DNA of 64,000 nucleotides from Paracoccaceae bacterium (GTDB taxonomy: Bacteria > Pseudomonadota > Alphaproteobacteria > Rhodobacterales > Rhodobacteraceae): the NCBI GenBank assembly GCA_033344815.1, contig JAWPMR010000001.1:792136-856135 (forward strand). Reading direction: 5' to 3'. Both the position numbers and the translations under genes were made by a program. Shown in pieces: positions 58,166-63,462 of the stretch (its first letter is position 1; every line of letters starts with the position of its first letter). The notes under the pieces are model-generated. The model did not search any database, had not been told where the DNA came from, and saw only the letters and a program-made list of their open reading frames with translations.

Positions 58166-59664
58166 GGATGCGCGGATGCCCGGTTGCACCCCGGCCTCGG
58201 CACCGTCGGGGACGCTGCCCGGCTTCCTCACGGCAGACGGCACGCACGGACCTCACCCCATCGCAGTGCAGGGCAAGCCTTGAAAGGGGCCTGATTCAAC
58301 ACCTGTCGCCGACCTGACCCCATCGCACAGATGAAACCGGCTGAGGCGGCATCCCCTGCAAAAACAAACGCTCTCGATAACGCCGCGGAAAAAGAGACAA
58401 ACCTCCGGTAGTGCGACAAATGCGGGGCGGTTCAATCCAGCCGGTTTCAGCCCTGCGTGGGCAGTCCGATGGGGATTAAAAAGCAATGACAGATCAGGCA
58501 AGCGACGCATTCGACAAACGCGCGAGCAGGAACAAATTTTACCAACAGAGGAGCTTATTCATGGGTTCACGAAAACACCCACTGCCTCTTCCTGGCACAA
58601 TATCTACCCTACGCAGGTGTATCGCGAAACTTCGATCTTGATTGAGGAACCAATTGGTCAAACCAACTATCAGATTTCAGATCGAAGGTCGGGCTGAAGA
58701 CCTAAAGGACCGAGCAGACGCTCGATCCGCGTTTCGTCGGGAATACTGTGATCGGAACCGATGACAGATTTCGCCAGCAAGGTGCGAAAAGAAGAGGAGA
58801 CTAGAGATATCGACACCAACTAAATTTCAAAGTGCGCCGTTGATTCCAGCGCGAGGGCAAACAGGTTGGGCTAAGGATCGCATCAATAGGCACGGTAAGC
58901 ACTTGCCGGGCTAAGTATCTTTCGTATGTCACCCCATCTCCCCTCCTGCAGATTTACCCTGCACCTTGCCAGCCAGGGCGTGGAGCATGACCGATATTTG
59001 TCCGTTGCCTCGGTAGTGCTTGAAGGTCGCTGCTCCACGCGGCCACGGGTCTGAAACTCTATTCCTGACTGGTTCACCTTAGGGTCTGGAACCTCGCGTT
59101 GCGCACTCAAAATGGGCGTCATTGTCGCAGAAAGCGGTTTCTGCAACAGAGGCTTCGGCTTGTGCACCACCCTGAATTCGTCGCCTGCCATGATAAGAAG
59201 AGAATCGTGAAAACGCACGAAACTATCACACGTCACGCCTTCATCGTGCTGAATGGCGGCAAAGGATATGAAACCCGCGCACCCTTTCATGCGCAGACCC
59301 AGAGCAACGCCAAGGCATCAAATGCGTGCACCAGAGATTCCGAACCAGCATCAAAGTGGAGAATGTCGACCTGCCCGGTGGCCCGAGCCGCCCGACGTTC
59401 GCCCTGGCCAGGCGCTTTGCTCAACGGCTACATCGCGCGAGGACAAGAGGACAAAGCACCCGAGGCAGGATAAAATCAGACGCGGTTTGTTCGAATAGAT
59501 CGCGCTGTTCTGCACCCCAAACCGAAAACAAACAACCGGCGCCAAACCGTCGACCGCTGACTTCAAAAACCGATAGTGCGCATTGAAAATTCCAATGCTC
59601 CACGTCGCAAGCGGTATTTTAGAGATCCTTGCCAGACGATTTGTTGCCCAATACTTTTTTGAGA
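58166..59664. other. 1.5-kb decayed region, no supportable gene
   Basis: Open frames at 58883-59290 (minus) and 59099-59473 (plus) have no family match and overlap one another. The region ends at the target-site duplication of the IS1595-type transposon. Confidence 0.4.
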
Positions 59665-59672
59665 CAAAACAA
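59665..59672. repeat. Target-site duplication, left copy
   Basis: The 8-bp sequence CAAAACAA directly abuts the left terminal inverted repeat and is repeated exactly at 63176-63183. Eight bases is the duplication size usual for IS1595-family elements. Confidence 0.9.
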
Positions 59673-59707
59673 CGGCATTATGGAGCAAAATCACCAAATA
59701 CGGTTAG
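59673..59707 (+). repeat. Left terminal inverted repeat
   Basis: Begins CGGCATTATGGAGCAAA and matches the inverted right end (63141-63175) at 32 of 35 positions. The inner part contains TCACCAAATA, a motif also found in front of the transposase gene. Confidence 0.92.
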
Positions 59708-59711
59708 TAAA

Positions 59712-59993
59712 TTATTCCACCTTTATTTCAAGGTCCATCGCTGCGAGGCATTGAAGAAGGAAAGCCGAACTAAAGCCGCCACGGCTTATTTTGTTCGCTA
59801 CACCGCCCGAACTCATATCGACACCTATTGCGGCAAGGCGGGCGGTAAGCTGGTCTACAGTCACGCCCTTGGACCGCATGGCCTCTCTGACCATTTCTCG
59901 CGCCTTGTCTTCATATTCGACATTCACCGGACTTGCCTTACGTGCAACCGGCTTGGGCGGCGTAGGTCTCTGCGCTCTATCAATCGTATTCAT
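59712..59993 (-). CDS. DUF6471 domain protein (transposon cargo)
   Basis: 93 residues: a basic, proline-rich N-terminus (about 1-25) followed by a helical domain (EDKAREMVREAMRSKGVTVDQLTARLAAIGV, GGVANKISRGGFSSAFLLQCLAAMDL) that matches the DUF6471 pattern, an XRE-like small DNA-binding-type fold. It is transcribed divergently from the transposase with 97 bases between the starts, in which two oppositely oriented copies of the terminal-repeat motif lie. A role as transposition repressor is suggested by position only. Confidence 0.8.
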   Translation of the reverse strand: MNTIDRAQRPTPPKPVARKASPVNVEYEDKAREMVREAMRSKGVTVDQLTARLAAIGVDMSSGGVANKISRGGFSSAFLLQCLAAMDLEIKVE

Positions 59994-60010
59994 GGATCAC
60001 CTTTTTTGGA

Positions 60011-60085
60011 ATAACCATATTCGGTGAATATATGTGTTGACGTGGAATCTGTCTACTGCCATAAGTAGTTCACCAAATAAGGTGA
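60011..60085. promoter_or_regulatory. Divergent promoter region with two copies of the terminal-repeat motif
   Basis: ATAACCATATTCGGTGAATA at 60011-60030 matches the right-end sequence at 63141-63160 in 16 of 20 positions. TCACCAAATAAGGT at 60070-60083, opposite in orientation, matches the terminal repeats at 13-14 of 14 positions. Between them lies a plausible transposase promoter: TTGACG (60037-60042) and CATAAG (60060-60065) with a 17-base spacer. The second copy overlaps the expected transcription start and the ribosome binding site (AAGGTGAG). Confidence 0.65.
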
Positions 60086-60090
60086 GTATC

Positions 60091-61050
60091 ATGTCGCAGC
60101 ACTTCCTCTTGTCACCCGCAGCCAAAACGCTTTCACTTGTGAAGGTCATGCGCATGTCACACGACGAAGCCCGTGATGCTTTCCGCAGTATCCGCTTCGC
60201 CGATACCAATGGAGAGCCATACTGCCCAGAGTGCGGTTGCTGTGAGGCATATGACCTCAAAACACGTCAGGTGTATAAATGCAAAAGTTGCTCAAAGCAG
60301 TACAGCCTGACGTCTGGCACGATCTTCGCAAGCCGCAAGCTGGCAATCCGCGATATTCTGGCGGCAATCACCATCTTTATTAATGGCGCAAAGGGCTACA
60401 GCACATTGCAGTTGTCCCGCGACTTGTCTGTTGATTACAAAACCGCTTTCGTCATGCTGCATAAAGTCCGCGAAAGCATAGAGATTGCCCGCAGCGAGGG
60501 CGCACTGTCCGGCTCTGTCGAAGTAGATGGCGCTTACTTTGGCGGCTATGTGAAGCCAGCCAATGAAAAGAAGGACCGCAAGGACCGCCGCAAGAAAGTC
60601 CACCAGTCAGGCAAGCGTCAGTCCGTTATCGTGATGCGTGAACGTGGCGGGCGCACACTTACTTATGTCACTCGCACGGAAGCTGAGGGCGTGGCACTGG
60701 ACGCAGCAAACGTACAGCATGGCGCAACAGTTCACGCGGATGAAGCCGGACACTGGGATAAACTGGCTGCTTACTTCCCAATAAAGCGCATCAACCACCA
60801 AGAAGCCTATTCAAAGGATGGCGCCTGCACCAACCAAGCCGAAAGCTTCTTTAGCCGCCTGCGCCGTGCAGAGGTTGGCACACACCACCACATCGCGGGC
60901 AAGTACCTTGGCGCGTATGCCGCTGAAATGGCGTGGCGTGAGGACTTCAACCGGGTTGCAAATGGGTATCAGTACACGATGGCTGTAAGCGCGGTTGCTG
61001 CGGCTCCACAGTCCCGCCAGTGGGCGGGCTACTGGCAGCGTCGGGCCTAA
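60091..61050 (+). CDS. IS1595 family transposase
   Basis: Start at ATG 60091 with AAGGTGAG upstream; 319 residues. The N-terminal zinc ribbon has CPEC and CKSC (about residues 45-80). The ISXO2-like DDE core has VEVDGAYFGG, VHADEAGHW and NQAESFFSRLRR, the last carrying the N/E pair typical of the family. No frameshift or stop is seen, so the enzyme is probably functional. It overlaps the convergent 248-aa gene by four bases. Confidence 0.93.
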   Translation: MSQHFLLSPAAKTLSLVKVMRMSHDEARDAFRSIRFADTNGEPYCPECGCCEAYDLKTRQVYKCKSCSKQYSLTSGTIFASRKLAIRDILAAITIFINGAKGYSTLQLSRDLSVDYKTAFVMLHKVRESIEIARSEGALSGSVEVDGAYFGGYVKPANEKKDRKDRRKKVHQSGKRQSVIVMRERGGRTLTYVTRTEAEGVALDAANVQHGATVHADEAGHWDKLAAYFPIKRINHQEAYSKDGACTNQAESFFSRLRRAEVGTHHHIAGKYLGAYAAEMAWREDFNRVANGYQYTMAVSAVAAAPQSRQWAGYWQRRA

Positions 61051-61793
61051 TGCTTGGCGGCTCGGCGCAATCTTTTTACAACTAGAGCAAACCATTCTTC
61101 AAGATCTTCGATACTGTCTTCGGACAGATTGTCGGGATAAGTGAACGCAACCTCACCCTCAATTGCATCAAAGATCATGCGCTTGCTCCCAGCCACGACA
61201 GGCTGAATTGCAGGCGCTCGGGGGGCGGTTGTGGCGAGATTTTGTTCCATTGCGGGTTGCTCCTGAGGACTGATTCCAGGAGATTCTTGCACCGCACTTT
61301 CGGAACGACCACTTCTTTCGGATACGTCATGTTGGCTCAAGTATTCGCATGTTTCAAGATACGCGGGAACCACGACCTTGACAGCGGCACTTGTGAACTC
61401 CTGCCGCAACAGGTGGGCGCGCAGATTGTTTTCTGACGGAATCGTTTCAGGGAACCTTTCATTTAAGGAAGCAAACAGGTCTGGGTTAAACGCAGCAGCT
61501 TTTAGCGCATCCGTTCTGTCAGCGTCACTTTCAGGCTCAATGAGATCAAGAGCCAGGGATGTTACTTGCAGCATCCTCTTCCCAGCATCACTTGTTAATC
61601 CGAACTGTTTTAGCGAAGCTAGAGCGGTTGCTGACGCACCATTTAAGCTGGAATATCCAATGTGTTGAACCGCCGAATCGCGATCAACAGGGTTCATCCC
61701 ATCCTTATCAAAAATCTTTTTGACCGCCGCCTCCGCTTCCGGTAAAGAGAGTGACGGATATCTAGGACTTCTAACACGTTGTTTAATAGGCAT
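61047..61793 (-). CDS. Unknown 248-aa transposon cargo protein
   Basis: The N-terminal half (residues 1-140) is a helical domain with SPRYPSLSLPEAEAAVKKIFDKDGMNPVDRDSAVQHIGYSSLNGASATALASLKQFGL, resembling proteins often seen near transposases and phage genes, with winged-helix-like character. Residues about 145-200 are a disordered Gln/Pro/Ala/Ser linker. The C-terminal 45 residues form a conserved-looking tail (MIFDAIEGEVAFTYPDNLSEDSIEDLEEWFALVVKRLRR). I know no function. It is convergent with the transposase. Confidence 0.75.
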   Translation of the reverse strand: MPIKQRVRSPRYPSLSLPEAEAAVKKIFDKDGMNPVDRDSAVQHIGYSSLNGASATALASLKQFGLTSDAGKRMLQVTSLALDLIEPESDADRTDALKAAAFNPDLFASLNERFPETIPSENNLRAHLLRQEFTSAAVKVVVPAYLETCEYLSQHDVSERSGRSESAVQESPGISPQEQPAMEQNLATTAPRAPAIQPVVAGSKRMIFDAIEGEVAFTYPDNLSEDSIEDLEEWFALVVKRLRRAAKH

Positions 61794-61979
61794 TTAATTT
61801 CTCACTTCTTGTCTGCACTGGTGGATGCGAGAGTTATACGTATAAAAACTTCAGAAATCCAGCGAAATGACGTATACGTGTTGACGTATAGATTTGCTGC
61901 TGTATGTTCTTCGCTCAAAGGCGCACAACATGTAGTGCGTCCAACTGGAGGTTACGAAGATGAGTCAGATATAAGGATG

Positions 61980-62077
61980 CCCACATGAAAGACGTTCCAG
62001 CGTCTTACATGTGGGGCTTGAATAAGGGCTGAGGCGAAAGCCTCGGTCCTCCCTATTTGAACAGACCGAGGTCAGCC
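61980..62077 (+). ncRNA. Candidate structured RNA in the transposon
   Basis: CCCACATG (61980-61987) pairs with CATGTGGG (62008-62015), and inside it AAGACG pairs with CGTCTT around TTCCAG, giving a 14-bp hairpin with one internal A-A. Next, GGCTGA (62027-62032) pairs with TCAGCC (62072-62077) to enclose GGC-GAAA-GCC and TCGGTC/GACCGA, a three-way junction with a GNRA tetraloop. Alternative pairing CCTCGGTC (62041-62048) with GACCGAGG (62064-62071) is also possible. There is no open frame. It precedes the 65-aa ORF and Cas2-like gene by about 80 bases, so it could be their leader or an independent RNA. No known RNA family is recognised. Confidence 0.55.
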
Positions 62078-62155
62078 AAACAACAACTGACAAATGATTC
62101 ATTTGGGTCGTTTCGTCAAGCCTGACGTTCGGTCGCAGCATCATGAGGTTTATCG

Positions 62156-62353
62156 ATGCACGACTTGAAAGTGACGCCCGCCATGGCGTCCGTAATCAAA
62201 CTGGCACGTTCTCAACGCATCCCGTATTCGTGGATCACGGGGTATTACACTGGCCTCAATTTTGGCCGCATCGCTGACGTTATGAAGGGGCGCTTGTTCC
62301 CCAACGTGCCGCCAGCGCCGTCACTCCCATCCGACTTTCCGAGGGGGGTGTAG
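62156..62353 (+). CDS. Small 65-aa protein paired with the Cas2/SinR-like gene
   Basis: GAGG lies about seven bases before ATG 62156. The product has a helix-turn-helix-like stretch (AMASVIKLARSQRIPYSWITGYYTGLNFGRIADVMKGR) resembling short DNA-binding modules that end in I..GR, then a proline-rich tail. It ends two bases before the ATG of the next gene. The family is unknown. The pair organisation recalls toxin-antitoxin or regulator-partner modules, but nothing proves that. Confidence 0.65.
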   Translation: MHDLKVTPAMASVIKLARSQRIPYSWITGYYTGLNFGRIADVMKGRLFPNVPPAPSLPSDFPRGV

Positions 62354-62355
62354 TG

Positions 62356-62634
62356 ATGGCTAATATGTTAGTCACTTACGATCTCAACGGCCCGCATCCA
62401 TCTCACAAAGAAATGGACGATCTGATTCCGAAGCTGGCGGTAACTTATGGCCGTGTCCTCGAAACAGTATGGTGGGTTGATTATCCGGGTACGGCTGCCC
62501 AACTTCGTGATCGCTTGAAAACCATTCTTGGCAGTGAGGATTTGCTGTTGTTGGTCGAGTGTAAGAGTGCGGCATGGACAAAAACCCTTTTGGATAGCAA
62601 ATCATTCAAAGACGCCTTCAATAAGGCAGCGTAA
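62356..62634 (+). CDS. Cas2/SinR-like small protein
   Basis: Start at ATG 62356 with GAGGGGGG upstream; 92 residues. The N-terminal strand MLVTYDLNGP, the middle VLETVWWVDYPGTAAQLRDRLKTILGSEDLLLLVECKSAAW and the short C-terminal helix match the ferredoxin-like Cas2/SinR/VapD-type fold, known for ribonucleases and for CRISPR adaptation subunits. No cas1 gene or CRISPR array is in the window. It is followed by a strong terminator. Confidence 0.65.
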   Translation: MANMLVTYDLNGPHPSHKEMDDLIPKLAVTYGRVLETVWWVDYPGTAAQLRDRLKTILGSEDLLLLVECKSAAWTKTLLDSKSFKDAFNKAA

Positions 62635-62641
62635 CGATTAA

Positions 62642-62666
62642 GGGCGGCTTAATGGCCGCCCTTTTT
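62642..62666 (+). terminator. Rho-independent terminator after the Cas2-like gene
   Basis: GGGCGGC (62642-62648) pairs with GCCGCCC (62655-62661) around TTAATG, followed by TTTTT. It sits between the Cas2-like gene and the convergent split gene. Confidence 0.9.
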
Positions 62667-63107
62667 CAGTGCCCATAACTTGCACACCCCATCCATACCC
62701 GCCTCGACGACAAGCCCATCTTTCTTGATGGTGTTTATTGAAATGCCGATACGCTTTCGCAGCAAGCGCAAGGTTTCTGCATCCCCGTCTATCATTTGTT
62801 CTATCACCCAAGCGTCCGCGATCTGCCGTGCAGACAGCGGGTCAGAGGCTTCCCTTAGCTGTGTCAGGATAAAGCGCTTCAAGTGCCCCTTGGGCGCTGT
62901 GTGCCGCGGTATAAACCCGTCATGGTAGGTGGTCGGGGGCTATGCGTTCGGATCGAACAGCGCAACGCAGGCGTCAATATGTTTGATGCTTGTTCGTACC
63001 AGCTCTGCCTCTGTCGTGATCTTGCCGAGTAGCTTGGTTAACTCTTTCCGCTTGGCATTCAAGCCTGATACGGTGTTGGGACGTTCATAGACTACAGTGT
63101 TTTCCAT
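62649..63107 (-). pseudogene. Cargo gene interrupted by an in-frame amber codon
   Basis: From ATG 63107 the frame encodes 55 residues (MENTVVYERPNTVSGLNAKR, then a coiled-coil and VALFDPNA) and meets TAG at 62942-62940. The same frame continues without further stop for 96 codons (PPTTYHDGFIPRHTAPKGHLKRFILTQLREASDPLSARQIADAW...) to 62649. Both halves together match small proteins I know from mobile DNA, which have the same coiled-coil, FDP, then winged-helix layout in one chain of about 150 residues. Either a recent nonsense mutation or two separate proteins; amber read-through is a remote option. Confidence 0.7.
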
Positions 63108-63140
63108 GCCTCTTTATAGCTAACCATTTAAGATTATACA

Positions 63141-63175
63141 ATAACCTTATTTGGTGAGTTTGCTCCATAATGCCG
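63141..63175 (-). repeat. Right terminal inverted repeat
   Basis: Read on the minus strand from 63175 it begins CGGCATTATGGAGCAAA and agrees with the left end at 32 of 35 positions. Confidence 0.92.
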
Positions 63176-63183
63176 CAAAACAA
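63176..63183. repeat. Target-site duplication, right copy
   Basis: CAAAACAA, identical to 59665-59672, directly outside the right terminal repeat. Confidence 0.9.
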
Positions 63184-63267
63184 CGGGACCGACGTTTGGT
63201 TTTCGTTGGCGAGGGTGGCGGATTGCTCAGCTCTGAATCTCATCGCAGACATCGACAAGTTTGAGGA

Positions 63268-63462
63268 TCACCTTGCGCGCCAAGGGTCCGACCAAGTGCT
63301 TTCCTCCACCGATCCCCGCCTGCTCATCCCGCCCTGCGCATCGCGCGCAACAATAGCGTGAATGGCATCTTCGATGTGTTGGTTTGCGACGTCATATCTC
63401 GTTGTGTCGAGAGAATTCTGTATATCTCGGAGGGCAAAAATGGCCCAATGTGAATTTGTCAT
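63268..63462 (-). CDS. Hypothetical small protein
   Basis: A 64-residue frame from ATG 63462 (MTNSHWAIFALRDIQNSLDTTRYDVANQHIEDAIHAIVARD) with helical, protein-like composition; the longer in-frame extension upstream looks non-coding. No family recognised and only a weak ribosome binding site. It lies between the transposon and lipA. Confidence 0.35.
   Translation of the reverse strand: MTNSHWAIFALRDIQNSLDTTRYDVANQHIEDAIHAIVARDAQGGMSRRGSVEESTWSDPWRAR

Follow-up and report, generated by a model that had tools for sequence, protein, structure and literature searches.

The window analysed here (64,000 nucleotides, forward-strand positions 792,136–856,135 of contig JAWPMR010000001.1 in assembly GCA_033344815.1; all coordinates are those of the window) contains at 59673–63175 a complete IS1595-family transposon of 3,503 bp, with its own DDE transposase and 35-bp ends. 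Its inverted ends, at 59673–59715 and 63133–63175, include terminal inverted repeats (59673–59707 on the plus strand, 63141–63175 on the minus strand) that agree at 32 of 35 positions, compared with a maximum of 18 when the bases of the element were shuffled 2,000 times, and they are bordered by an 8-bp target duplication, CAAAACAA, whose left (59665–59672) and right (63176–63183) copies match at 8/8 positions. The transposase gene (60091–61050, plus strand; alignment A1) is an intact frame of 319 codons without stops, and its product matched DDE_Tnp_IS1595 (PF12762, 2.2e-41) and Zn_ribbon_IS1595 (PF12760, 2.8e-10) above the Pfam cut-offs, as well as the NCBIfam IS1595 model (NF033547, 3.1e-44), also above cut-off. 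A first-pass annotation had proposed a complete cargo-bearing IS1595-family transposon with these repeats, this duplication and an intact transposase; all four points held on re-measurement, and 16 related elements add to the basis for the first. The anatomy of the element is well supported, and the element may still be mobile. It is present once in its own 5.08-Mb genome, and nothing corresponding to its left flank was present at the three congeneric loci examined, so that an empty site could not be demonstrated there.

Beyond the transposase the element carries five genes, encoding a DUF6471 protein, p248, p65, a 92-amino-acid SinR/Cas2-like protein and p156. The earlier count of five or six extra coding units thus settles at five, p156 being one gene split by an in-frame TAG. 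The DUF6471 gene (59712–59993, minus strand; 93 amino acids; PF20075, 5.5e-23) diverges from that of the transposase. The 248-amino-acid p248 (61047–61793, minus strand) has a predicted N-terminal winged helix in a low-confidence structure model (mean pLDDT 67.5), for which a fold search found no match below 1e-3; its relatives occur in elements L019, L021 and L024, in the phage-like contig L045 and in the IS1-like element L056. The p156 gene (62649–63107, minus strand; TAG at 62940–62942) encodes a coiled-coil/winged-helix protein. NCBIfam gave no name for p248, p65, SinR, DUF6471, p156 or the 179-amino-acid type.

Between p248 and p156 lie p65 and the SinR-like gene, which the first-pass annotation had read as a Cas2/SinR-like pair. 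That reading survives for the second member only. The first, p65 (62156–62353, plus strand; 65 amino acids; alignments A3 and A4), appears from its conserved pattern to be HTH-like; it matched nothing in Pfam, NCBIfam or PHROGs, nor any of 72,556 plasmid and 50,697 phage records at E≤0.01. A distant p65-like protein matched 5 plasmid and 6 phage records, and L009, L093 and L094 were followed up. The SinR/Cas2-like protein (62356–62634, plus strand) belongs by sequence to phrog_1090 (5.6e-13), with relatives of 59–73% identity in five viral loci, one of 65% in element L074, and matches of 28–41% identity in 33 phage records. No Cas2 profile of Pfam or NCBIfam matched it, the PADLOC Cas2b match reached only 0.031, the best sequence match among solved structures was a Cas2 at 0.28, and a fold search with its low-confidence model (mean pLDDT 61.7) gave no match below 1e-3.

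The related elements are mosaics; nine of them are the complete relatives that a single transposase scan of GTDB contigs turned up at its 17 loci. The related elements were all selected for having both ends findable and so cannot show ends in every relative, and none were seen in L025–L027. Most share a backbone of the DUF6471 gene, the transposase, p65 and p156, interrupted by three slots (left, after the transposase, and after p65) that hold unrelated genes or none, their gene content varying from element to element. In the window, p248 occupies the slot after the transposase (61053–61942), for which blastn (E≤1e-3) gave no match to L016, L017, L018, L021, L071 or L074, and the SinR-like gene occupies the slot after p65 (62341–62629), which is absent from the first five of these, where the two sides lie 18–45 bp apart. 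Homology to L016, L018 and L021 ends at 61040, restarts at 61943–62088, ends again at 62301–62340 and restarts at 62630–62641; backbone DNA is 79–92% identical in relatives whose p248 and SinR slots hold unrelated genes or nothing. The proposal that the cargo forms a defined module is only partly supported: DUF6471 and p156 sit in the shared backbone, p248 and the SinR-like gene in variable slots. Among the 12 elements delimited by their ends alone and with both flanks present, 11 have an 8/8 duplication and L009 has 7/8; L048, L051, L072 and L074 were delimited by a script demanding an exact 8-bp repeat, and their duplications are therefore not independent evidence. In L020, L021, L024 and L074 the gene for the transposase is truncated, has a broken frame or contains gaps. 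DUF6471 was matched in 14 of 17 elements; as an IS1595-specific marker it was rejected, a transposase piece being present at only six of 13 DUF6471 loci, two of those six in the window's own genome. Judged from these sequences, the element belongs to an Alphaproteobacteria lineage with a conserved backbone (DUF6471, transposase, leader–p65, p156) and exchange slots. The sharp homology boundaries show that passengers are exchanged at the slots between otherwise similar copies, probably by homologous recombination in the shared backbone DNA.

Some of the exchanged genes resemble defence genes. Three of 20 cargo proteins scanned with PADLOC (a set from which some cargo, including the 178–181-amino-acid type and relatives of p248, was absent) matched defence models below 1e-20, namely AbiD (1.7e-64), HEC-09 (3.5e-42) and CapP (2.1e-29). 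None of eight flank controls did, and the contrast is weak because three of the eight had weaker matches (best 1.1e-12). The defence role suggested at first pass gains indirect support from what some relatives carry, and for the window's own cargo it is hypothetical. The slot genes may benefit the host or a resident phage, and in some relatives the benefit is probably phage defence.

Upstream of p65, on the plus strand, lies the structured intergenic segment noted at first pass, which on analysis gave a folding z score of −5.62 for the 180 nt before p65. We place this leader at 61960–62155, its 5′ end being putative, behind a promoter-like TTGACG-N16-TATGTT (61881–61908) read by eye and likewise putative. 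It includes a mini-ORF after GGAGG (61960–61974; ATG-AGT-CAG-ATA-TAA, encoding MSQI), comparable to those found in 9 of 14 leaders and in 29 of 560 random pieces. The predicted fold comprises a hairpin H1 with an 11-bp stem and a GAAA loop (62025–62050), a stem P3 enclosing hairpin P4 (62064–62134, with GTCAA at 62115–62119), and a hairpin P5 (62138–62159) over the p65 start codon. P3 is supported by covariation (0.442, compared with 0.168, sd 0.030, after shuffling and a maximum of 0.110 when slid). Similar leaders precede SinR alone in viral contigs and p65-like genes that had no matched transposase in the stretch fetched.

Across a set of 28 leaders, not all independent of one another since it includes three nearly identical pairs (window/L021, L016/L073 and L080/L081), 20 folded with z<−4 compared with 2 of 109 control upstream regions, and 21 contained GTCAA within the last 90 nt compared with 4 of 109 controls. 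Folds were weak in L073 (−0.55), L016 (−0.85), L019 (−2.25), L075 (−2.51) and L048 (−2.68). The set comprises 25 leaders before p65-type genes and three before SinR; leaders of the SinR genes L089–L092 were folded and left unscored, so that a SinR gene entered the set only if its leader was known beforehand. L054 (where the p65-like part belongs to a 513-amino-acid protein), L052 (no clear start) and L084 (a repeat of L083) were omitted before counting, and L009, recognised later, stands outside the counts. Start positions are approximate for L020 and L082 and were chosen among candidates for L049–L053 and L075–L077, the p65-like frame of L077 being broken. Alignment A5 and RNA model R1 exclude L019 and L024, whose leader is different; R1 was built from 12 close leaders, that of the window among them. 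As a wide search tool R1 was rejected: among 36 sources, scores below E 0.2 were confined to the 12 sequences that it was built from, and a search of 289 genomes returned only the window's own genome and one weak match (E 0.0099). Rfam 15, searched with window positions 59600–63300 and with L045, L046, L047, L048 and L017, gave at best 24.6 bits against a cut-off of 39. That match, of BjrC68 to the antisense strand of L048, was rejected as a terminator look-alike because none of 24 BjrC68-like loci (17 of 142 genomes) holds a p65-like gene.

We consider it likely that the locus represents a modular transposon of the IS1595 type, and that the p65/SinR cassette in it is controlled by the leader and also occurs in phages. 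The transposase would act on the 35-bp ends to move the element, and leader–p65, with or without SinR, would form a small expression cassette common to transposons and phages. In the predicted fold of its transcript, a long structured leader traps the start codon of p65 inside a hairpin; p65 and the gene that follows it would then probably be translated at a low level until something remodels the leader. A ribosome translating the mini-ORF, p65 itself or an antisense RNA might do so. Both p65 and DUF6471 probably act as regulators by binding DNA, keeping the element quiet, and the cassette may serve regulation, defence or immunity.

Other readings of the same segment deserve weight. GTCAA could be the −35 box of an antisense promoter (the −35 consensus being TTGAC), with H1 as terminator, and an antisense RNA of ~90–110 nt would then act in trans to repress p65/SinR, which would control copy number or confer immunity; IS10 RNA-OUT and plasmid countertranscripts are the comparison cases. 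We hold this to be fairly unlikely. It would account for the constant position of GTCAA (which in 19 of 28 leaders precedes the start by 36–43 nt), for −10-like hexamers with 5/6 matches in L074 (TATATT) and L051 (TAGAAT), and for the presence of at least four T among the 8 nt that follow the strongest hairpin in 10 of 22 leaders on the antisense strand versus 2 of 22 on the sense strand, the script finding no hairpin in 6 of 28. The window itself, however, offers a best −10 of only 2/6 and no U-run, its sense strand is 9.0 kcal/mol more stable than the antisense, and the stability and the G–U bias in P3 (14 G–U versus 3 A–C cells) point, for most of the transposon group, to a sense RNA; nor is the weak BjrC68 sRNA match general. 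It is likewise rather doubtful that the slots are ordinary neutral passengers piling up in an IS1595 element, with a leader that is merely a strong RBS-masking fold. IS1595 elements reportedly carry passengers, and several cargo genes have no match, as this reading would have it, but P3 covariation, the constant motif position and the appearance of the leader in front of unlike genes, both in viral contigs and in transposons, argue against it.

Quite unlikely, in our estimate, is an RNA-antitoxin/nuclease-toxin pair of type III-like design formed by the leader and SinR, which would serve to defend against phages or to maintain the element while p65 regulates its own expression. A structured leader does lie directly upstream of the SinR/Cas2-like gene, with or without p65, and SinR is oriented opposite to most of its neighbours in three annotated phages. 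A precedent is AbiF with RCd22, a type III-like, prophage-borne system with its RNA antitoxin upstream (PMC12373285); in both, a structured RNA sits just ahead of the gene for a small protein, and the case here differs in that no repeated motifs were found, the proteins are different and the start codon lies within the predicted fold. Yet 12 of the 14 elements with p65 lack SinR, no repeat family has two copies within 61915–62155, SinR records from Klebsiella, Staphylococcus and Enterococcus viewed by eye had no such leader, and nuclease activity of SinR is putative, with the PADLOC Cas2b match at only 0.031. A separate and more ambitious reading, also unlikely, would make the leader a new mobile RNA class: with p65 and/or a Cas2-like protein it would constitute an RNA–protein module passing between IS1595 transposons and phages, the RNA (sense leader or overlapping antisense) setting immunity against incoming copies or phages and the transposon serving as a shuttle with exchangeable defence slots.

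Set beside known systems, the modular transposon that we favour shares with the IS1595 family the zinc-ribbon and DDE_Tnp_IS1595 transposase, the terminal inverted repeats and the 8-bp duplication, and differs in its size (2.6–5.1 kb among the elements here), shared multi-gene backbone and exchange slots. Compact relatives are L013 (1,132 bp, transposase only, 8/8 duplication) and L014 (1,537 bp, no duplication). Tn7-like transposons with defence cargo (PMC8649781) resemble it in variable cargo that includes defence genes; the element here has one DDE transposase and few small cargo genes, and Pfam found no other known transposition gene among its products. Unlike the phage members of phrog_1090, the SinR-like protein here lies in a transposon, downstream of a leader and p65. 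The range of IS1595 elements would thereby run from insertion sequences of nearly minimal size up to a modular carrier of cargo, and a shared backbone with defined exchange points opens the swapping of genes on a small transposon to direct testing. The leader/p65/SinR cassette, found in transposons and viral contigs and absent from Rfam where tested, provides a definite RNA to study and a way into the SinR/Cas2-like phage genes that have so far gone unexplained.

The window element, at 59673-63175, ends in inverted repeats, is flanked by an 8-bp duplication and is present in one copy in its own 5.08-Mb genome. Its intact 319-amino-acid transposase frame matches the IS1595 models of both Pfam and NCBIfam, and its other contents are a divergent DUF6471 gene, the cargo gene p248, a structured leader (61960..62155, plus strand), the HTH-like gene p65, a SinR/Cas2-like gene (SinR) and p156, a coiled-coil/winged-helix gene that an in-frame TAG interrupts at 62940-62942. 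Among relatives, L016-L019 and L021-L024 have p156 as an uninterrupted frame, and its frame is damaged in L020. Elsewhere in the window's genome lies a second, damaged DUF6471 copy (L151, G000:C1:3077687-3077863) with an in-frame TAG, near a transposase remnant of 43% identity. The window's genus also contains three damaged relatives (L129, L130 and L131) with one recognisable end apiece, and one of the three has a transposase fragment that is 93% identical.

One transposase scan of GTDB contigs yielded 17 confirmed loci, comprising nine complete elements (L016-L024), three fragments that yielded no end (L025-L027) and five loci with transposase identity of just 26-31% (L028-L032). For the nine complete elements, the source records give Yoonia, Roseovarius, Phaeobacter, Methyloligella, Rhizobium, Sulfitobacter, Hyphomonas, a Hyphomonadaceae bacterium and Mesorhizobium. 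Further elements came from viral contigs (L041, L042), a plasmid (L009) and genomes (L048, L051, L072, L074), giving, with the window, a set of 17 elements selected for having both ends found. Among the 12 that were delimited by their ends alone and had both flanks, 11 carry an 8/8 duplication and L009 a 7/8 one; this count leaves aside L021, which fills its contig, and four elements found by requiring a duplication. L020 has a shortened transposase gene, that of L021 and L074 has a broken frame, and that of L024 an internal gap. The relatives in viral contigs (L041:4407-8507 and L042:4798-8602) are complete, with different cargo and, by eye, a 77-78-amino-acid HTH-like gene at the usual place of DUF6471. 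L048:5025-7659 is a divergent IS1595 element with 28% transposase identity and other ends, and it has a p65-like gene and leader.

Most of these elements share a backbone. The transposase was matched in 17/17 elements on recount, DUF6471 in 14/17 (not L041, L042 or L048), and p65 in 14/17 (not L023, L041 or L042), the last count comprising 12 direct matches plus L051 and L009 by a profile that included the L051 sequence, with a 12-bit match in L041 left out. Direct p156 matches were found in 14/17, with a weaker relative in L009 and L051 and none in L048; SinR was matched in two, the window and L074. Compared with L016, L018 and L021, the window DNA matches at 59673-61040 (83-86% identity), in a second block from 61943-62088 to 62301-62340, and in a third from 62630-62641 to the right end, and the gaps between these blocks contain p248 and SinR. 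The first gap, slot 1, is occupied by p248-type genes in the window, L019, L021 and L024, by a 178-181-amino-acid type in L016, L018 and L022, by a P63C protein in L017, or by other genes. The second gap, slot 2, follows p65; the p65-SinR pair recurs in L074 (SinR identity 65%), and L022 has a GNAT gene at the place of SinR. The window, L016, L018 and L021 have a short left slot; in other elements this slot holds DUF4760 (L017), DUF3800 (L019), Abi_2/AbiD (L020), dCTP-deaminase-like and DUF1643 proteins (L024), NYN/HEC-09 (L074), or proteins without an over-cut-off match (L022, L023, L072). The p248 family is also found on another transposon type: L056:5022-7739, with ends GGTAGTGGGTCAGTTTGA, duplication GGTCAAGG and a transposase judged IS1-like by eye, contains a p248-family gene and a 73-amino-acid protein similar to the beginning of the P63C cargo protein.

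The leader is structured and conserved. We scored 28 leaders, 25 upstream of p65-type genes and three upstream of SinR, keeping L052, L054, L009, L084 (a repeat of L083) and the SinR genes L089-L092 outside the count. The 180 nucleotides upstream had a mean folding z of -4.95 (below -4 in 20/28 and below -3 in 23/28), compared with -0.60 for 109 control regions upstream of other ORFs of the same loci (two and seven, respectively). The motif GTCAA (window 62115-62119) occurs within the last 90 nucleotides of 21/28 leaders versus 4/109 controls, at -36 to -43 in 19 of those 21, and is absent from that interval in L019, L024, L049, L050, L075, L076 and L082. For the stem P3 (62064..62134), an alignment of 12 close leaders (11 transposon loci and the phage-like contig L045), fitted to the model, gave a covariation score of 0.442, compared with 0.168 (sd 0.030) when shuffled and at most 0.110 when slid; before fitting, the values were 0.464 versus 0.213. 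Both sides change in 7 of 13 pairs, a count also reached in 19/500 shuffles. A mini-ORF behind a ribosome-site-like stretch stands at the start of 9/14 transposon/L045 leaders versus 29/560 random pieces, and the L009 leader is laid out alike by eye.

We take the sense leader as the primary reading; an RNA from the opposite strand is a live alternative as the acting species. Read in reverse, GTCAA becomes TTGAC, a -35-like box, with -10 matches of 5/6 in L074 and L051, and at least four Ts follow the hairpin in 10/22 antisense versus 2/22 sense cases. In the window, however, both antisense signals are weak, and of the 16 leaders from transposons and close phage loci, 13 have the better fold on the sense strand, with a margin of 4 to 18 kcal/mol (in L071 and L072 the strands tie, and the antisense fold of L019 is better by 14 kcal/mol). 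The sense fold is better in three of the remaining 12 leaders, and thus in 16/28 overall (Wilcoxon p=0.032), compared with 53/109 controls (p=0.66). P3 also contains 14 G-U versus 3 A-C cells, the pattern expected of a sense RNA.

The leader and its gene form a cassette common to transposons and viral contigs. The leader lies directly upstream of SinR, without p65, in viral contigs L080, L081 and L083, precedes a p65-like gene and SinR in L082, and accompanies p65 in L046 and L047; in L045, divergent p248 and leader-p65 adjoin genes judged phage-like from their ORFs, and no transposase was matched in its 6.3 kb. By eye, four SinR homologues (from Klebsiella, Staphylococcus and Enterococcus phages and an E. 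faecium plasmid) had no such leader. The cassette is rare in the genomes sampled: p65 was matched in 8/385 genomes of the class (E<=1e-3) and 7/341 of the order (E<=1e-4), and SinR in 2/190 of the class, own genome included throughout; one class-level match, L054, was rejected as not a p65. In L049 a distant p65-like gene is found close to an integrase, and in L075:5517-7195 one stands beside a reverse transcriptase on the opposite strand that matches PADLOC RT models. At L081:3001-4271, the leader and SinR gene are followed by a 322-amino-acid protein that weakly matches a TIR effector (1.1e-9).

Results for cargo versus flanking genes in PADLOC make a defence role plausible for some members of the group and leave it unproven for the window element. 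In a subset of 20 cargo proteins, three fell below 1e-20 (AbiD, HEC-09 and CapP, the last matched by the M78 peptidase of L051), compared with none of eight flanking genes, three of which matched more weakly (1.1e-12, 1.7e-8 and 9e-4). On the Methylobacterium plasmid, element L009 has a cargo protein (L009:7192-8262) that matched PDC-S07 at 7.1e-13 and showed a weak match (0.0018) to the Pycsar cyclase PycC. p248 had no PADLOC match, and the best SinR value was just 0.031.

Passenger-carrying IS1595 elements are already known in principle. Among the literature matches listed for IS1595 passengers, cargo, abortive infection, leaders and antisense RNA, ISNwi1 included, none describes the backbone or cassette; nor, among those listed, does any for SinR/Cas2-like genes with structured RNA describe the cassette, and a search for DUF6471 found no paper. 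In the mechanism that we propose, the DDE transposase would move the transposon, cargo would be swapped between elements by recombination in backbone DNA, and p65 and DUF6471 would act as DNA-binding regulators. The 92-amino-acid SinR-like protein, with a predicted structure of low confidence, may be a Cas2/VapD-like nuclease, and the leader would restrain translation.
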